Assembly (NCBI RefSeq): GCF_025685645.1
Contig: NZ_JAGSYF010000001.1
Location: 496,001 to 560,000 of the forward strand
Length of the DNA stretch: 64,000 nucleotides
From: Edaphobacter bradus
GTDB taxonomy: Bacteria; Acidobacteriota; Terriglobia; Terriglobales; Acidobacteriaceae
Direction: 5' to 3'
The notes under the pieces were generated by a model that saw nothing but the letters and a program-made list of their open reading frames with translations, was not told where the DNA came from and did not search any database. A program made the translations under genes and the position numbers. Within the stretch, counting starts at the first letter, position 1, and every line of letters begins with the position of its first letter. Shown one piece after another: positions 1 to 7,144 of this stretch.

Positions 1-1087
1 TGGCAGCTCCACCTGCCCGCTCATTCTCGCCGATTGCAAGATCCCCGCGTCTAACCTGCTCGGCGAAGTAGGCAAGGGCCACCACATCGCGTTCAACATC
101 CTCAACGTCGGCCGCTACAAGCTCGGCAACGCCGCCGTTGGAGCCGCGCGCATGTGCCTTGGCAACGGCATCCGCTACGCCAAGGAGCGCAAGGCCTTCG
201 GCAAGTCCATCTCCGAGTTTGGCCTTATCCAGGAGAAGCTCGCCGACTGCGCCGTGGGGGTCTTTGTCGGAGAAGCGCTCTCGTACCGCGCCGTAGGGAT
301 GATTGACGCCGCGCTGGCGAAGGTCGATAAGCACGACACCGCCGCCATCCAGAAGGCCATCGAGGACTACGCCGTCGAGTGCTCTATCTGTAAGGTGTGG
401 GACTCGGAGATGCTCGACCGCGTCGTCGACGAGGTGCTGCAGATCTACGCCGGCTACGGCTACGTCGAGGAGTATCCGGCGGAGCGCGCTTATCGCGACT
501 CGCGCATCAACCGCATCTTTGAAGGCACCAACGAGATCAACCGGCTGATCATCACCGGCTGGCTGATGAAGTCGGCGATGAACGGCAAGCTCGCCCTGAT
601 GCCTGCCATCAAGCAGCTGATGGACGAGGTCATGTCCGGCCCCGTCGCGAAGGAAGACCGCGAGGGCCCGCTGGCCGAGGAGTACAACCTGCTAGCCAGC
701 GCCAAAAAGCTCGCTCTGTTCGCCGCCGGTTCGGCGACGCAGAAGTATATGCAGAAGCTCGCCGACGAGCAGGAGGTGATGTCCGCCATCGCCGACATGA
801 TCATCGAGGTCTTCGCCATGGAATCGGCCATCCTGCGTGCGGAGAAGCTCTCCGGCAAGGGGACGGCCGAGATCCCCGTCGCCCTGGCGCGTATCTATGC
901 TTCGGGCGCGATGGAGAGAGTCGAACTCGCGGCGCGCAAGGTGATTGCGACGGTGGCTGAGGGCGACATGCTGCGCACGCAGCTCGCCATCCTTCGCCGC
1001 CTCGCCAAGCACGATCCGGCTGACACCATCGCGCTGCGCCGCCAGGTGGCACAGCACGTCATCCGGGCAGGGAAGTACGCCTTCTAA
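1..1087 (+). CDS. acyl-CoA dehydrogenase, C-terminal part (5' end outside window)
   Basis: FAD-dependent acyl-CoA dehydrogenase of fatty acid beta-oxidation. The reading frame is open from base 2, so the gene begins upstream of the window. The visible part starts in the middle domain and continues through the helical C-terminal domain. The stretch R-I-F-E-G-T-N-E-I carries the family's usual FAD-binding and active-site signature. About 180 residues follow that signature, which is longer than in short-chain enzymes and resembles the very-long-chain (ACADVL/ACAD9-like) class. The class is an inference from length and tail. A hairpin terminator follows directly. Confidence 0.93.
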   Translation, partial: GSSTCPLILADCKIPASNLLGEVGKGHHIAFNILNVGRYKLGNAAVGAARMCLGNGIRYAKERKAFGKSISEFGLIQEKLADCAVGVFVGEALSYRAVGMIDAALAKVDKHDTAAIQKAIEDYAVECSICKVWDSEMLDRVVDEVLQIYAGYGYVEEYPAERAYRDSRINRIFEGTNEINRLIITGWLMKSAMNGKLALMPAIKQLMDEVMSGPVAKEDREGPLAEEYNLLASAKKLALFAAGSATQKYMQKLADEQEVMSAIADMIIEVFAMESAILRAEKLSGKGTAEIPVALARIYASGAMERVELAARKVIATVAEGDMLRTQLAILRRLAKHDPADTIALRRQVAQHVIRAGKYAF

Positions 1088-1213: not shown

Positions 1214-4201
1214 ATGTTGACTCCCCATTCTCTGCGCGGCAGACTCCGCATAGCTTCGCCGTTCGTCTTTGCGTCGGTCTGTCTCCTTGCGCTCTCTGTG
1301 CCTGCTGCCTCGCAGACACCGCGTGTCGTTGTTGCGGCACCGGAGATCAGGCTTTCGGCGGCTGATTCCGCCGTCGATGCCGGCCCCGTTCCGGTCTCGC
1401 AGCCGTTGCGGTTGACTCTCCGGCTGAATCCTTCGGCGGATCGCACCGCCGCGCTCGACCAGCTTCTTGCCGCGCAGATTACGTCGTCCTCGCCGTCGTA
1501 TCACCAGTGGCTTACTCCACAGCAGTTCGCCGCCAGCTATGGAGCCACCGAAGACCAGATTGCCACCGCCACATCATGGTTCCAGTCGCAGGGCCTCACG
1601 GTTGAGTCTGTCTCGCCCGCAAAGACCTGGCTCGTCCTCAGCGGCACCGCGGCGCAGGTCCAGCGTGCCTTTGCTGTGTCCCTGCGCAACTACGCCATCT
1701 CTGGAGCGTCGTACTACGCAAACTCAGACACCCCCACGATGCCCCGTGCAGTGGCTTCGCTGGTTGCTGGAGTCTCCGGGTTGAGCAGCATCCCATCGGT
1801 GGCGACGACATCTGTCTCCTCGGTCGGCGTCATGGGGAAGGCGACGGTACTTGCTGTTGGAGCGTCCAGCGCCGATGCGCTCTCCGCGGCGGCCTCGGCC
1901 ATCGACGATAACTCCTCGCCGATCCTTGCCATCTCTACAAGCGCCTGTTCGATCGATCTCACCCAGGCGGACTACGACAACTATCGCGCGCTCTTTCGGC
2001 AGGCGAGTGCACAGGGCATCACTGTGCTGGCGACCAGTTCCTGCGGAGCACGTGGCTCGGGCAGCTTTCCTGCGAGCCTCAGCGAGGTGACTGCGCTGAC
2101 GATCGCTCCCACGACCGCAACCTTTGCGGCTATCGACCCCCGCCCATCCTGGCAGAGCGCCGCAGGCCTGCCAACGGACGGATCGCGTGACGAGCCCGAC
2201 CTCACCACAAGCTCGCTGGCCGACTTCGCCAATGCGATGGTGACCATCCTGCAGCAGAGTGGAGGCCGTCAGGGCAACATCAACAGCACGCTCTACGCAC
2301 TGGCTAAGACGCCTGATCTCTACACGCAGCCTGACGATGCGCCTGCAGGTACGTGGGAGCCTGCCACCGGGCTCGGCACGGTCAACCTGCAGACGCTCAT
2401 CAAGGTCTACCCGCGCGGCGTGAATGGTACGACGACCACGCTGACTTCCAGCAGCAACGGTAGCTCCGTCGGTTATGGGACGTCGGTCACGCTGACCGCG
2501 ACCGTCTCTGCCTCAACCTCAGCCAGCACGGGACCGACCGGCACTGTCACCTTCAGCACTGCCTCCCAGGGAACGATCGGCACAGCGGCGCTCACCAACG
2601 GTACAGCAACGCTGACGGTAGGCAATCTCAACGTTGGGACCTACCTCATCACGGCAGGTTATTCCGGCGATAGCAACTATGCCGCCAGCTCTGGAACAAC
2701 CAGCGTTACAGTCACTACTGTAACCGCCACAGTGGCGGCGACCATCTCTCCCGCTTCCAACGTTCCCTACGGCAGCACTGCGACTGTAACGGCTACGGTC
2801 TCTTTGCCCAACTCGGGAGCAGCTCCTAGTGGAACGGTATCCGCCCAGATCGAAGGCATTACTGGTGCTCTTTACACTGCTACTCTTTCGCCGAATCCGG
2901 GTGGCAACACGGCTACAGCAAATATCAACGTCAACGCACCCACTCCCAGCACGACACCCTATACTGTTCAAGTCACCTGCGCCGGCAATCAGAACTTCCA
3001 GTGCCAAGCTCCTCAAAATCTTACCTTCACGACCGCGAAGGGCAACACCACTACAACCATCAGTCTTTCTCCCGCCGCTCCCCAGGCCGGACAGCCCGTC
3101 ACCATTACGGCGACGGTCAACAACAACGGCAACGGCACCGGGACATACACCTTCTCCGGCAGCATCACGTTTGTCGACACCTCCACTGGAAAGACACTCG
3201 CCACGGTCCCCGTCGGAACGAACCAGGCGGCCACCTCCCAGACACTCTCAGGCAACGTTCAGCACAACATTGTCGCGACTTACAGCGGTGATGCCAACTG
3301 GAAGGGCAGTACCTCGACTCCTCAGGCTGTCACTCCCACGCTTCTGCCCGCGACGGTCTCTTTGACTGCGAACTCCTCCAAGACACTCGCCGGCGTCAAT
3401 GTAGTCTTCACCGCAACGGTCTACACCACGGTCACCAATACGGTCGGCCCCACCGGCACGGTCACGTTCTACGATACCTTCAACGGGTCGGTCGTTCAGC
3501 TCGGAGTGCCATCGGCAGTTACACCTAACGGCCCCAATCAGTCGATCGCCATCTTCTCAACGACTGGGCTCCAGGCGGGCACGCATAGCGTCTACGCCAT
3601 CTACAACGGGGACGCGAACTTTTCGAGCGCAACCGCCCTGCCGTACTCGTTGATGCTCTCCGACTTCACTCTTTCCATGGTTCCGCAGACCCTGACGCTG
3701 CAGCCCGGTCAGACTGGCCAGGCCGTCATTCTCGCCGGACTTGTGGGTGGCTTCAATGGGAGCGTCAGCCTTGGATGCACACCGCCCTCAAGCTCTGAGA
3801 CGACGTGCTCCTTCAACCCGGTCATCCTGACGGGCGGGGGCAGTACAACCCTGACGATCGTCACGACGGCTCCGGTCGTCCAGACGTCGCACAGGGGGCC
3901 GGGGCACTCCGGGCCGTTTGGCGGATGGAACGCGTTCGCCGGCTCGACCCTGGCTGTTCTGGTCTGGTTTGTGACGCCTCGCCGCCGCCGAATGCTTCCC
4001 GGAGTCATGCTGCTTCTTGCGACGGTGTGCCTCTCCAGTTCGATCGGCTGCGGCCGCGTGAAGTCAAGCGGTTCCGGCGGCACCACGATAACCGACCCGG
4101 GGACTCCGCTCGGCACGCAGATCTACACCATTACGGCTGCGGGGAGCGACGGCGTCAATACGGTTCGACACACCTACCAATATCAAGTGACAATCCAGTG
4201 A
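1214..4201 (+). CDS. secreted S53-like (sedolisin) protein with decayed catalytic domain and Ig-like repeats
   Basis: The 995-residue product begins with a Sec signal peptide ending near AASQT. A pro-kumamolisin activation domain follows (residues about 45-190, with the typical SYHQWLTPQQFAASYG). The next part aligns by eye with the S53 catalytic domain but is much shortened. I cannot find the Glu-x3-Asp pair or the Gly-Thr-Ser nucleophile motif, both clear in the neighbouring paralogue at 4400. From about residue 400 there are several Ig-like beta-sandwich repeats (GTVTF..., YSGDSNY type). Near the C terminus come a hydrophobic segment, a Pro-Arg-Arg-Arg-Arg cluster, a second hydrophobic segment ending Ile-Gly-Cys-Gly, and a short beta-rich tail. 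It is probably exported and non-proteolytic; its function is unknown. Confidence 0.85.
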   Translation: MLTPHSLRGRLRIASPFVFASVCLLALSVPAASQTPRVVVAAPEIRLSAADSAVDAGPVPVSQPLRLTLRLNPSADRTAALDQLLAAQITSSSPSYHQWLTPQQFAASYGATEDQIATATSWFQSQGLTVESVSPAKTWLVLSGTAAQVQRAFAVSLRNYAISGASYYANSDTPTMPRAVASLVAGVSGLSSIPSVATTSVSSVGVMGKATVLAVGASSADALSAAASAIDDNSSPILAISTSACSIDLTQADYDNYRALFRQASAQGITVLATSSCGARGSGSFPASLSEVTALTIAPTTATFAAIDPRPSWQSAAGLPTDGSRDEPDLTTSSLADFANAMVTILQQSGGRQGNINSTLYALAKTPDLYTQPDDAPAGTWEPATGLGTVNLQTLIKVYPRGVNGTTTTLTSSSNGSSVGYGTSVTLTATVSASTSASTGPTGTVTFSTASQGTIGTAALTNGTATLTVGNLNVGTYLITAGYSGDSNYAASSGTTSVTVTTVTATVAATISPASNVPYGSTATVTATVSLPNSGAAPSGTVSAQIEGITGALYTATLSPNPGGNTATANINVNAPTPSTTPYTVQVTCAGNQNFQCQAPQNLTFTTAKGNTTTTISLSPAAPQAGQPVTITATVNNNGNGTGTYTFSGSITFVDTSTGKTLATVPVGTNQAATSQTLSGNVQHNIVATYSGDANWKGSTSTPQAVTPTLLPATVSLTANSSKTLAGVNVVFTATVYTTVTNTVGPTGTVTFYDTFNGSVVQLGVPSAVTPNGPNQSIAIFSTTGLQAGTHSVYAIYNGDANFSSATALPYSLMLSDFTLSMVPQTLTLQPGQTGQAVILAGLVGGFNGSVSLGCTPPSSSETTCSFNPVILTGGGSTTLTIVTTAPVVQTSHRGPGHSGPFGGWNAFAGSTLAVLVWFVTPRRRRMLPGVMLLLATVCLSSSIGCGRVKSSGSGGTTITDPGTPLGTQIYTITAAGSDGVNTVRHTYQYQVTIQ

Positions 4202-4399
4202 CGGTGGATTGAGCAAGTCCAGCAAAATCGGAGATACTTACGGTCGGGACTGCGAATCAGTTGGTTCGCATGCTCCGGCCGCAACCTTTTTTCCCGTGTG
4301 CCGTCTATACCGGTGGAATTCAACCTCGCAGCGGACGCCTGGAGGCTGGTGCCGTTCCCCCGGAAGACAATCCTCGTTGGGCACAGGTATAAAGGCAAA

Positions 4400-7144
4400 A
4401 TGTTCATGCGAAGCCCTTTCGTAGTCAGGCTTATCCTCCCCGCTCTCTTCGCTATTGGTCTTTCGGCCTTTCCGCTTGAAGCGGCCGTCAATAACCGTAT
4501 CGCGACAGTCAATGACAACAGCCGTCGCACGATTGAGCACACAATCCCTGCCCGGGCGCGGCTGGCAACCGATCTTGGCGAGGCTCCCGCGGATCGCAGG
4601 CTCGACTCAGTCACGCTGCACTTCAACATGACCGACGCGCAGCAGGCCGAGCTCAACCAGCTTCTCATCGACCAGCAGAATCCCAGCTCGCCACACTACC
4701 ACCAGTGGCTCTCGCCGGAGCAGTTCGCCGCGCGCTTTGGGCTGTCTAGCTCCGACCTCGCCAAGATTTCCTCGTGGCTCACTGGCAAGGGCCTTACCAT
4801 CACCAGCGTTGGGCGCACCGGGACGATGATCACGTTCTCCGGCACAGTCGGGCAGATCGAGCAGGCCCTCGGCACCCGCATTCACGCGTACTCTCTCAAC
4901 GGCGAGCAACACATTGCCAATGTCGCCGACCCGTCGCTGCCGGCCGCTATCTCAGACGTCGTGATGGGCGTCACTGGGCTGCACGACTTCAAGCTCAAGC
5001 CGCGTGCGCATGTGCGCCCAAATTACACGTCATCCATTACTGGCAACCACTACATAGCTCCCGGTGACTTCTACACGATCTACGACATAAATCCGAACTC
5101 GATCAACGGAGCTGGAGTGTCAATCGCAGTCGTGGGACAGACTGACATCAGTACCTCTGATGTTGATGCCTTTCGCGCTGCGTCTGGTCTCTCCTCCAAC
5201 TCGCCGACGATTGTTAAGGCTACGGGATACGTTGCCGGTACCGTCGCGAGCGACATCGACGAGGCTCAACTCGACGTTGAGTGGTCTGGCGCAGTTGCTC
5301 CGAATGCCTCGATTAGTTTTGTGACTGTAGGGGCGAGCCAAAGTGCCTCCGTTATTGACGCGCTTCTCTATGCCATTTCAAACAAGGTCGCTCCCATCAT
5401 CAGCATCAGCTATGGCAGCTGCGAGGCTTCGTGGGGGCAGTCCACTCTTGCTTCAATCAACAAATCCCTTCAAATGGCCAACACCATGGGCATCACAGTT
5501 GTAGGGCCCGGAGGAGACTCCGGCGCGACAGACTGCGACTCTGCCCTTTCGACAGCGACGCAGGGACTGGCAGTCGACTTTCCCGCCAGCTCTCCGTTTG
5601 TGACCGGTATTGGCGGCACCATGTTCAACGAGGGAACAGGCACCTACTGGAACAGCAGCAACGGCAGCTACTCTGGCTCTGCAACCGGTTACATCCCGGA
5701 GACAGTCTGGAACGAGTCGAATTCCTCCGGTCTTGGCGCCGGTGGTGGAGGAGCCAGCGCTTACTTCAGCAAGCCCGCGTGGCAGGTCGGTACCGGTGTT
5801 CCGTCCGACCTCTCCCGTGACGTGCCGGATATCTCCCTTGATTCAGCGGCCAGCCACGATGGTTATCTCTTCTGCTCGAAGGGATCGTGCACCAACGGCT
5901 TCCGCAACTCTTCCAGCAACCTCAATGTCGTAGGCGGCACGTCGGTCGCCACGCCCGCATTTGCCGGTATCCTCGCTCTGCTTGAGCAGAAGCTCAACGC
6001 AACGACTGGCCTGGGCAATGTAAATCCTCAGATCTACGGCCTTGCCAACAGCACCTACTACAACAATGCCTTTCACGACATCAATAGCGGCAACAATGAC
6101 AGCCCCTGCACAGCCGGCACGCCCGATTGTCCCAACGGCGGCAGCATCGGTTACAACGCGACGACAGGCTACGATCTTGCTACAGGATGGGGAAGCCTTG
6201 ACGTAGCCAACTTCGTCAATAAGTGGAGTCTTGCCTCGCCGACGGGCGTCAACGGCTCCATCGGGACAGCAATCTCGACCACGACTGTCTCGACCACCAG
6301 CGCGTCATGCGGCCTTCAGGGCAAGATCGCTCTGACCATCACTGTCGCCGGCAGTGGCAGCACTCCCACTGGTACTGTTCAGATCGTCGATCTTGGCCCG
6401 AGCGGCACCGCCTCGACCGTCCTGGGTTCTGCTACTCTCTCTGGCGGCACTGCTACCTATACGCTCGATACCTCGACGCTTAGCTCCGGCGGCAACACCA
6501 TCAACGCGGTCTACTCCGGCGACTCGAACTACGCGGGCTCGAAGGGACCGCTCTCTCTCGATATAGTCTCTTCCAGCCAAAAGGACTTCGCCCTCACCCC
6601 CTGCACCGCTTCTGCTTCGGCCAGGTCAGGTTCGACGGCAAACGGAGTCACGTTTACCCTGACGCCTGCCAACGGCTTCACCGGCACCATCACCCTCAGC
6701 GCCAGCGCAGACAGCCCGCTCTCTGGGACCTACACCTTCACTCCCTCATCTGTAACCATCGGCTCTACATCTGCGGTGACCACGAGTTTCGTCCTTACGG
6801 CATTTGTGAGCCAGGCCAGGACGGGCAGTACGCTTAGCTCTTCCAATGGGCCTCCGCTCCGTGGTCGGGCTCCGTGGTACGTCGCAGGTTCGGGAGCCAC
6901 CCTCGCTTGCGCACTCCTCCTCATCGCGCCGCGCCGCAGGCGTTGGGGAGCACTGCTTGCAGTACTACTTTCCGTAGCTGCAATCAGCGTCTCTGGTTGC
7001 GGATCGAGCAGTAGCAGCTCTACGGGCTCGGGCTCTGGTGGAGGCACTGTCACTAATGCAACTCCGGGGACTTACACCGTCAATGTCACGGCCACCTCTG
7101 GCAATCTCGTGCATACCTCAACCGTCACCTTCACCGTGCAATAG
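4400..7144 (+). CDS. secreted S53 family (kumamolisin-like) serine-carboxyl peptidase with Ig-like domains
   Basis: Predicted acid-active secreted peptidase of 914 residues. I start at ATG 4400, because the longer frame from 4298 adds 34 residues ahead of a clear signal peptide (MFMRSPFVVRLILPALFAIG). The prodomain (about residues 50-200) contains HYHQWLSPEQFAARFG. Catalytic residues are visible: Glu288 and Asp292 in EAQLDVEW, the oxyanion Asp373 in GGDSG, and Ser515 in GGTSVATP. The calcium-site pattern FHDI...GYDLATGWGS closes the domain. Ig-like repeats follow, then the same hydrophobic-RRRR-hydrophobic-SGCG module and beta-rich tail as the neighbour at 1214. The two genes are probably tandem duplicates. 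Confidence 0.92.
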   Translation: MFMRSPFVVRLILPALFAIGLSAFPLEAAVNNRIATVNDNSRRTIEHTIPARARLATDLGEAPADRRLDSVTLHFNMTDAQQAELNQLLIDQQNPSSPHYHQWLSPEQFAARFGLSSSDLAKISSWLTGKGLTITSVGRTGTMITFSGTVGQIEQALGTRIHAYSLNGEQHIANVADPSLPAAISDVVMGVTGLHDFKLKPRAHVRPNYTSSITGNHYIAPGDFYTIYDINPNSINGAGVSIAVVGQTDISTSDVDAFRAASGLSSNSPTIVKATGYVAGTVASDIDEAQLDVEWSGAVAPNASISFVTVGASQSASVIDALLYAISNKVAPIISISYGSCEASWGQSTLASINKSLQMANTMGITVVGPGGDSGATDCDSALSTATQGLAVDFPASSPFVTGIGGTMFNEGTGTYWNSSNGSYSGSATGYIPETVWNESNSSGLGAGGGGASAYFSKPAWQVGTGVPSDLSRDVPDISLDSAASHDGYLFCSKGSCTNGFRNSSSNLNVVGGTSVATPAFAGILALLEQKLNATTGLGNVNPQIYGLANSTYYNNAFHDINSGNNDSPCTAGTPDCPNGGSIGYNATTGYDLATGWGSLDVANFVNKWSLASPTGVNGSIGTAISTTTVSTTSASCGLQGKIALTITVAGSGSTPTGTVQIVDLGPSGTASTVLGSATLSGGTATYTLDTSTLSSGGNTINAVYSGDSNYAGSKGPLSLDIVSSSQKDFALTPCTASASARSGSTANGVTFTLTPANGFTGTITLSASADSPLSGTYTFTPSSVTIGSTSAVTTSFVLTAFVSQARTGSTLSSSNGPPLRGRAPWYVAGSGATLACALLLIAPRRRRWGALLAVLLSVAAISVSGCGSSSSSSTGSGSGGGTVTNATPGTYTVNVTATSGNLVHTSTVTFTVQ

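Follow-up and report, generated by a model that had tools for sequence, protein, structure and literature searches.

A predicted membrane hairpin with a lipoprotein-like signal inserted into the C-terminal Ig-like domain of secreted proteins in Edaphobacter bradus and other Acidobacteriaceae

Introduction

Lipoproteins are taught as N-terminally anchored proteins whose signal comes first in the sequence. The lipobox described in PMC12636315 is N-terminal, and lipidation followed by cleavage has also been proposed for MYXO-CTERM proteins (PMC11980579). The NCBIfam model NF058595, named 'lipo-invert putative C-terminal anchoring domain' (invert_tail) and curated with a cut-off of 37 bits, is drawn as a 113-residue tail without an upstream domain; its profile position 1 corresponds to the last strand of the N-half of the Ig-like domain described below. 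The name conveys neither anatomy nor mechanism. A literature search returned no paper on lipo-invert and nothing on Ig/kumamolisin proteins of Acidobacteriaceae or on split-Ig anchors, and the titles and abstracts found on internal or C-terminal lipoboxes contained nothing resembling the module reported here.

The window analyzed (a stretch of 64,000 nucleotides of the Edaphobacter bradus genome) carries two genes whose C-terminal tails both score above the curated cut-off of NF058595, at 50.2 bits (E 2.8e-13) and 55.6 bits (E 6e-15). The tail therefore already has a curated name and had been noticed by curators. These scores, far beyond chance, bear out the sequence-only reading of this DNA, which had described a tail of hydrophobic stretch, RRRR, hydrophobic stretch and GCG as common to both proteins.

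Results

Two secreted proteins with related tails

The features of the two genes are listed below, in window coordinates.

1214-4201, + strand: gene 1, 995 aa; N-terminal Sec/SPI-like signal, pro-kumamolisin and degenerate S53 region, four Big_3_5 Ig repeats, C-terminal split Ig domain
3659..3871, + strand: gene 1 split Ig-like domain, N-terminal part (strands A-E); intact-domain N-half profile 40.5 bits, AF2 pLDDT 94-97, end set at model position 71
3908..3979, + strand: gene 1 hydrophobic segment 1 (TM1) and flank; from the sequence, with an AF2 helix at region residues 90-105
3980..3991, + strand: gene 1 RRRR basic loop, predicted cytoplasmic side; from the sequence
3992..4048, + strand: gene 1 hydrophobic segment 2, the putative h-region of an internal type II-like signal, ending in SSIG; AF2 helix 113-126
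4049..4051, + strand: gene 1 lipobox Cys 946; sole invariant column of alignment A3 (64 sequences)
4103..4198, + strand: gene 1 tail, predicted strands F and G closing the Ig fold (TPLGTQIYTITAAGSDG..YQVTIQ); AF2 strands 152-163 and 168-179, pLDDT 95-98
4298-7144, + strand: gene 2; secreted S53 (sedolisin/kumamolisin-type) peptidase, one Big_3_5, C-terminal split Ig domain
6584..6802, + strand: gene 2 split Ig-like domain, N-terminal part (strands A-E); N-half profile 33.7 bits, AF2 pLDDT about 90-98
6860..6931, + strand: gene 2 hydrophobic segment 1 (TM1) and flank; AF2 helix 105-116
6932..6943, + strand: gene 2 RRRR basic loop; from the sequence
6944..6997, + strand: gene 2 hydrophobic segment 2 (putative h-region), ending in lipobox SVSG; AF2 helix 119-137
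6998..7000, + strand: gene 2 lipobox Cys 901; sole invariant column of alignment A2 (77 sequences)
7061..7141, + strand: gene 2 tail, predicted strands F and G closing the Ig fold (TPGTYTVNVTATSGNLVHTSTVTFTVQ); intact-domain C-half profile 31.2 bits, AF2 strands 164-174 and 177-187, pLDDT 93-98

Translation of gene 2 likely starts at the ATG at 4400 or 4406, giving a product of 914 or 912 aa. Sec-like N-terminal signals and pro-kumamolisin domains are present in both products. Gene 2 contains the S53 catalytic motifs GGTSVATP (Ser) and EAQLDVE (Glu/Asp) and thus encodes an S53 peptidase. Inspection of the gene 1 sequence revealed neither the Ser nor the Glu/Asp motif; since its pro-kumamolisin domain is kept, gene 1 looks like a pseudo-peptidase adjoining an intact S53 gene. 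The earlier description of both products as S53 proteins consequently holds in full for gene 2 and not for gene 1. Elsewhere in the same genome, another protein (L169) has lost the S53 Ser motif and retained EATLDVE.

The C-terminal order is ...GSTLAVLVWFVTP-RRRR-MLPGVMLLLATVCLSSSIG-C-G... in gene 1 and ...GATLACALLLIAP-RRRR-WGALLAVLLSVAAISVSG-C-G... in gene 2. The lipobox Cys stands in the context SIGCG in gene 1 and VSGCG in gene 2, followed by 49 and 47 residues, respectively, rich in Thr and Val.

The tail completes an interrupted Ig-like domain

A profile of the tail also matched internally in proteins of the same kinds, directly after 'GFSGxVTLSCSGxPxGAxCxFxPxSV...' and with no hairpin in between. 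An alignment of five such intact, hairpin-free domains (A1) was searched against 31 genomes of the family, and the matches were either full length (ending at position 100 of 102) or stopped at position 70-79. The short matches are the tails, and the point at which they stop is the start of the hairpin. Profiles of the N-half and the C-half were trained solely on 42 intact domains and applied to 98 tails. The N-half was found upstream of the hairpin in 96 of these, mostly ending at position 71-73 of 73, and the C-half, placed after the Cys and usually matched from its first position, exceeded the 99th percentile of shuffled sequences in 90. The gap between the halves was bimodal, with 62 domains at -10 to 9, 82 at 60-89 and none at 10-39. 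All split domains among the loci measured were C-terminal; the one row marked as internal (L148) proved to be a run of Ig domains with no hairpin.

The stretch that the sequence-only reading had called a beta-rich tail is present; it is, almost certainly, no separate module but the closing strand pair, F and G, of an Ig-like (NEW3-like) domain begun upstream, with the hairpin inserted in the E-F loop in the order TM1-RRRR-TM2-lipobox Cys-linker (about 73 residues; median insert length 73.5 aa across the 98 tails). That the tail completes an Ig fold interrupted by a membrane hairpin had been missed in that reading. It had also set an ordinary domain without processing against its own proposal; the domain is an ordinary Ig domain, and into it a lipoprotein-like signal has been inserted.

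Structure models yielded further insight into the packing of the two halves, which was judged from whole-length structural alignments of AF2 models. For both window tails, pLDDT was about 90-98 in the A-E and F-G parts and 50-75 in the hairpin. In the model of the last 188 residues of gene 2, the A-E part and the two tail strands were of high confidence, with two hairpin helices and linkers of low confidence. The best structural alignment of this model was with residues 404-502 of the Micromonospora viridifaciens sialidase, at Z 13.0 and 1.8 A over 98 residues (model 2..188), and the gene 1 model aligned with the same sialidase domain at Z 12.1 and 1.7 A over 94 residues (model 1..180) in one alignment. 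Both halves are thus predicted to fold as one beta-sandwich. Since the C-half of gene 1 is weak by sequence profile (1.8 bits), its F-G assignment rests on the AF2 model. The intact domain shows weak sequence kinship to Pfam PF10633 (NEW3), and a sequence search of the PDB with it gave weak matches, the best of which (E 0.045) set the tail against the last strands of an Ig domain from titin, a hint only.

The hairpin carries a lipoprotein-like signal

The Cys is the only invariant column in alignments A2 and A3. Across the 98 tails, position -1 is G, A or S in 96 (G71/A15/S10), position -3 is mostly L, A, M or V, and position +1 holds G, S or A in 92 and Asp in none. The median distance from the basic loop to the Cys is 19 residues. 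Hydrophobicity is high in both segments, with median Kyte-Doolittle values of 1.96 and 2.13 over 17 residues, and the loop between them is basic and acid-free. The positive-inside rule predicts RRRR on the cytoplasmic side, with the two halves of the Ig domain on the opposite side of the membrane. Because the 98 tails had been chosen for having the Cys, its invariance requires an independent set, and loci picked just by the upstream Ig half (L138-L167) were checked. In these, selected without regard to Cys, hairpin or tail, the hairpin and [GAS]-Cys were present in 19 of 19 C-terminal split domains. The lipoprotein-like signal near the C terminus that the sequence-only reading had pointed out is supported.

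The hairpin contains a basic n-region, an h-region and a lipobox with an invariant Cys and a small residue at -1, as in type II signals. The weakest NF058595 matches in the E. bradus genome are plain N-terminal lipoprotein signals, showing the likeness of the two. The location differs, with the Cys at residue 946 of 995 and 901 of 948; because its signal lies near the C terminus instead of the N terminus, the module was not filed as an ordinary lipoprotein.

Recurrence within the family and beyond

The sequence-only reading had named a tail limited to the two window genes as counting against it; the module was found in 29 of the 31 sampled family genomes, at 1-13 copies each, the two without it being G297 and G311. 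The E. bradus genome has 11 NF058595 matches above the cut-off, including one degraded copy, and one genuine copy below it. The degraded or frameshifted tail gene (L176 / L011, G000:C1:892525-892734) has an upstream frame broken by stops, with the end of the hairpin, the Cys and the F-G strands still readable. Besides S53-type proteins, the passengers in this genome include NHL/teneurin-like propellers, ASH-type Ig proteins, a melibiase with CBM35 and Ig-repeat arrays. The N termini of the passengers are Sec-like. With the tail on many unrelated passengers in 28 of the 30 sampled genera of the family, anchoring or processing, previously raised as a possibility, is the best reading of the module.

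In a sample of the phylum, 41 of 297 genomes passed the NF058595 cut-off, 36 inside the family and five outside. A true split module was present in two of these five, both of one genus in another family of the phylum (G200 and G248; loci L027 and L032), as single copies; a relative (G290) carries none, a distribution that would fit horizontal transfer. The other three matches are not true modules: L178 is an ordinary lipoprotein, and L179 and L180 are intact Ig domains (genomes G059, G153 and G121, respectively). With an ordinary lipoprotein and intact Ig domains passing 37 bits, the model yields false positives beyond the family. A tblastn search of plasmids with the tail region of gene 2 gave no match, and a contig scan with gene 2 recovered only three loci, the nearest in a Granulicella MAG (58%).

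Discussion

Proposed mechanism

The favored reading, held with a confidence modestly above even, is that the hairpin acts as an internal type II signal for the usual Lgt and LspA enzymes, and that the lipidated F-G strands stay bound to A-E. The passenger would be exported by its N-terminal Sec signal, and the hairpin would insert with RRRR inside, leaving strands A-E and F-G outside to fold into one Ig domain. The second hairpin helix would serve as the type II signal, with RRRR as cytoplasmic n-region, an h-region and, facing outward, the lipobox [LAVM]-x-[GAS]-Cys. Lgt would then place a diacylglyceryl group on the Cys, a step considered probable, and LspA would cleave before the Cys as in a normal lipoprotein, for which the expectation is moderately favorable. 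The product would be an F-G piece of 35-50 residues with a lipidated N terminus, bound non-covalently to A-E, leaving the passenger lipid-anchored at its C-terminal end; that strand complementation holds the two pieces together is given slightly better than an even chance. The leftover hairpin would either hold the complex at the inner membrane or be clipped, allowing passage to the outer membrane or surface, a final location to which we assign a little less than an even chance.

The weakest step of this proposal is that cleavage by LspA would leave the passenger attached to TM1-RRRR-TM2. In that state the lipid of the small piece seems superfluous, unless TM1 is cut as well, and no conserved site was seen ahead of TM1. 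We know of no precedent for Lgt and LspA acting on a second, internal transmembrane segment preceded by another helix. The full picture has the housekeeping lipoprotein pathway severing a folded Ig domain, with the freed F-G lipopeptide staying inserted and anchoring a large surface protein non-covalently; it is given somewhat less than an even chance.

The same anatomy could instead act as an uncleaved anchor: the hairpin would hold the Ig domain at the inner membrane, both of its halves lying outside, the Cys would be lipidated by Lgt or not, and LspA would never cut the internal signal. Two hydrophobic segments flanking a basic loop suffice for membrane anchoring, and the Ig fold in the AF2 models is complete without cleavage. 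Such an anchor has no need of a lipobox, yet the Cys is invariant and the small -1 residue recurs in 96 of 98 tails, and both are found in all 19 independently selected domains; lipidation without cleavage would account for the Cys but not for the small residue at -1. We regard this alternative as unlikely.

Candidate processing enzymes

The E. bradus genome encodes LspA, Lgt and Lnt. A dedicated LspA paralogue was ruled out, as 34 of 36 family genomes carry just one LspA gene. For Lgt, two or more divergent genes are present in most genomes of the family; a dedicated Lgt shows no strict link to the module, as three genomes (G022, G107 and G194) have one Lgt yet carry tails. The single Lgt of these three scores far higher. 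The two divergent Lgt genes of E. bradus (L184 and L185; G000:C1:837615-838415 and C3:333160-333867) score 111.7 and 67.9 bits.

Exosortase is encoded in 17 of the 31 family genomes and missing in 14, and tails are kept in 12 of these 14, ruling it out as a required enzyme. No MrtX-type CPBP protease (myxosortase) and no rhombosortase (TIGR03902) scored above cut-off in any of the 31, the latter giving weak matches only, likewise in all 14 controls. Rhomboid-like proteins are encoded in all sampled genomes. Exosortase, myxosortase and rhombosortase are thus not needed, and the dedicated, exosortase-like sorting suggested by the sequence-only reading is not supported by these distributions. With exosortase dispensable, MrtX and rhombosortase below cut-off, LspA single copy and Lgt and Lnt present, the housekeeping lipoprotein pathway is the candidate. 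E. bradus itself has two exosortase genes (G000:C2:1357538-1358296 and C3:289891-290694), so a PEP-CTERM-type system probably coexists there with the lipo-invert module.

These results also bear on a two-signal scheme, in which TM1 and RRRR would form a tripartite tag of the PEP-, GlyGly- or MYXO-CTERM style cut by a dedicated protease, TM2 and the tail being a lipoprotein-like by-product or chaperone piece. In shape, TM1 with its arginine cluster does recall the hydrophobic and basic portions of these tags (PMC11980579), and the rhomboid-like proteins and, in part of the family, exosortase could supply the enzyme. Against this, no conserved motif or site was seen before TM1 (at most about 1.2 bits per column), and the exosortase, MrtX and rhombosortase distributions do not follow the tails, making the scheme distinctly improbable. 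An independent C-terminal cassette following various domains, its likeness to an Ig end being convergence of Thr/Val-rich beta sequence, could draw on the ability of low-complexity Thr/Val composition to mimic strands and on the way NF058595 is drawn, but is largely refuted and very improbable given that shuffled and reversed tails fail the C-half profile (median -2.2 and -1.2 bits vs 24.4 for real tails), that the gap between halves is bimodal, and that structural alignment places both halves in one domain.

Implications

Under the favored reading of an internal type II signal, a hairpin signal inside an Ig domain suggests an unusual route to a lipid anchor at the far end of large secreted proteins. 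Type II signal logic seems to have been relocated to a loop within the C-terminal Ig domain across nearly the whole family, on passengers as different as peptidases, beta-propellers, glycosidases and Ig arrays. If true, this would constitute C-terminal anchoring without a dedicated sorting enzyme, in which the link is a strand-complemented domain, and a membrane-anchoring counterpart of domains that are strand-complemented, or self-cleaved but still associated. The curated but unexplained NF058595 gains a testable structure.

Comparison with known systems

By the curated cut-off, the window tails are members of NF058595, and hairpin, Cys and tail are identical in kind. The model differs in covering the tail without the split Ig domain, and its matches, some of them above the cut-off, extend to intact Ig domains and ordinary lipoprotein signals. 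The Ig-like domain of the Micromonospora viridifaciens sialidase has the same fold, and its 99 residues align with the split module from end to end at 1.7-1.9 A; there the aligned stretch is contiguous, with an E-F loop free of hairpin and lipobox.

PEP-CTERM/exosortase and GlyGly-CTERM/rhombosortase resemble the module as C-terminal anchoring tags on many exported passengers. Unlike these, the module has no signature motif before TM1 and does not require the sorting enzyme, and the protein continues past the basic cluster, about 70 residues following RRRR. MYXO-CTERM/myxosortase likewise combines a C-terminal module, an invariant Cys, a transmembrane helix and an Arg cluster. Its order and topology are reversed, the Cys preceding the helix and the Arg cluster ending the protein, with no defined lipobox, and no MrtX reaches its cut-off in the 31 family genomes.

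The type II signal peptides processed by Lgt, LspA and Lnt share with the module the basic n-region, the h-region, the lipobox with G, A or S at -1 and the invariant Cys, and their enzymes are encoded in the genome. In contrast to these peptides, the signal here lies about 50 residues from the C terminus and follows another transmembrane helix, and its cleavage would split a folded Ig domain.
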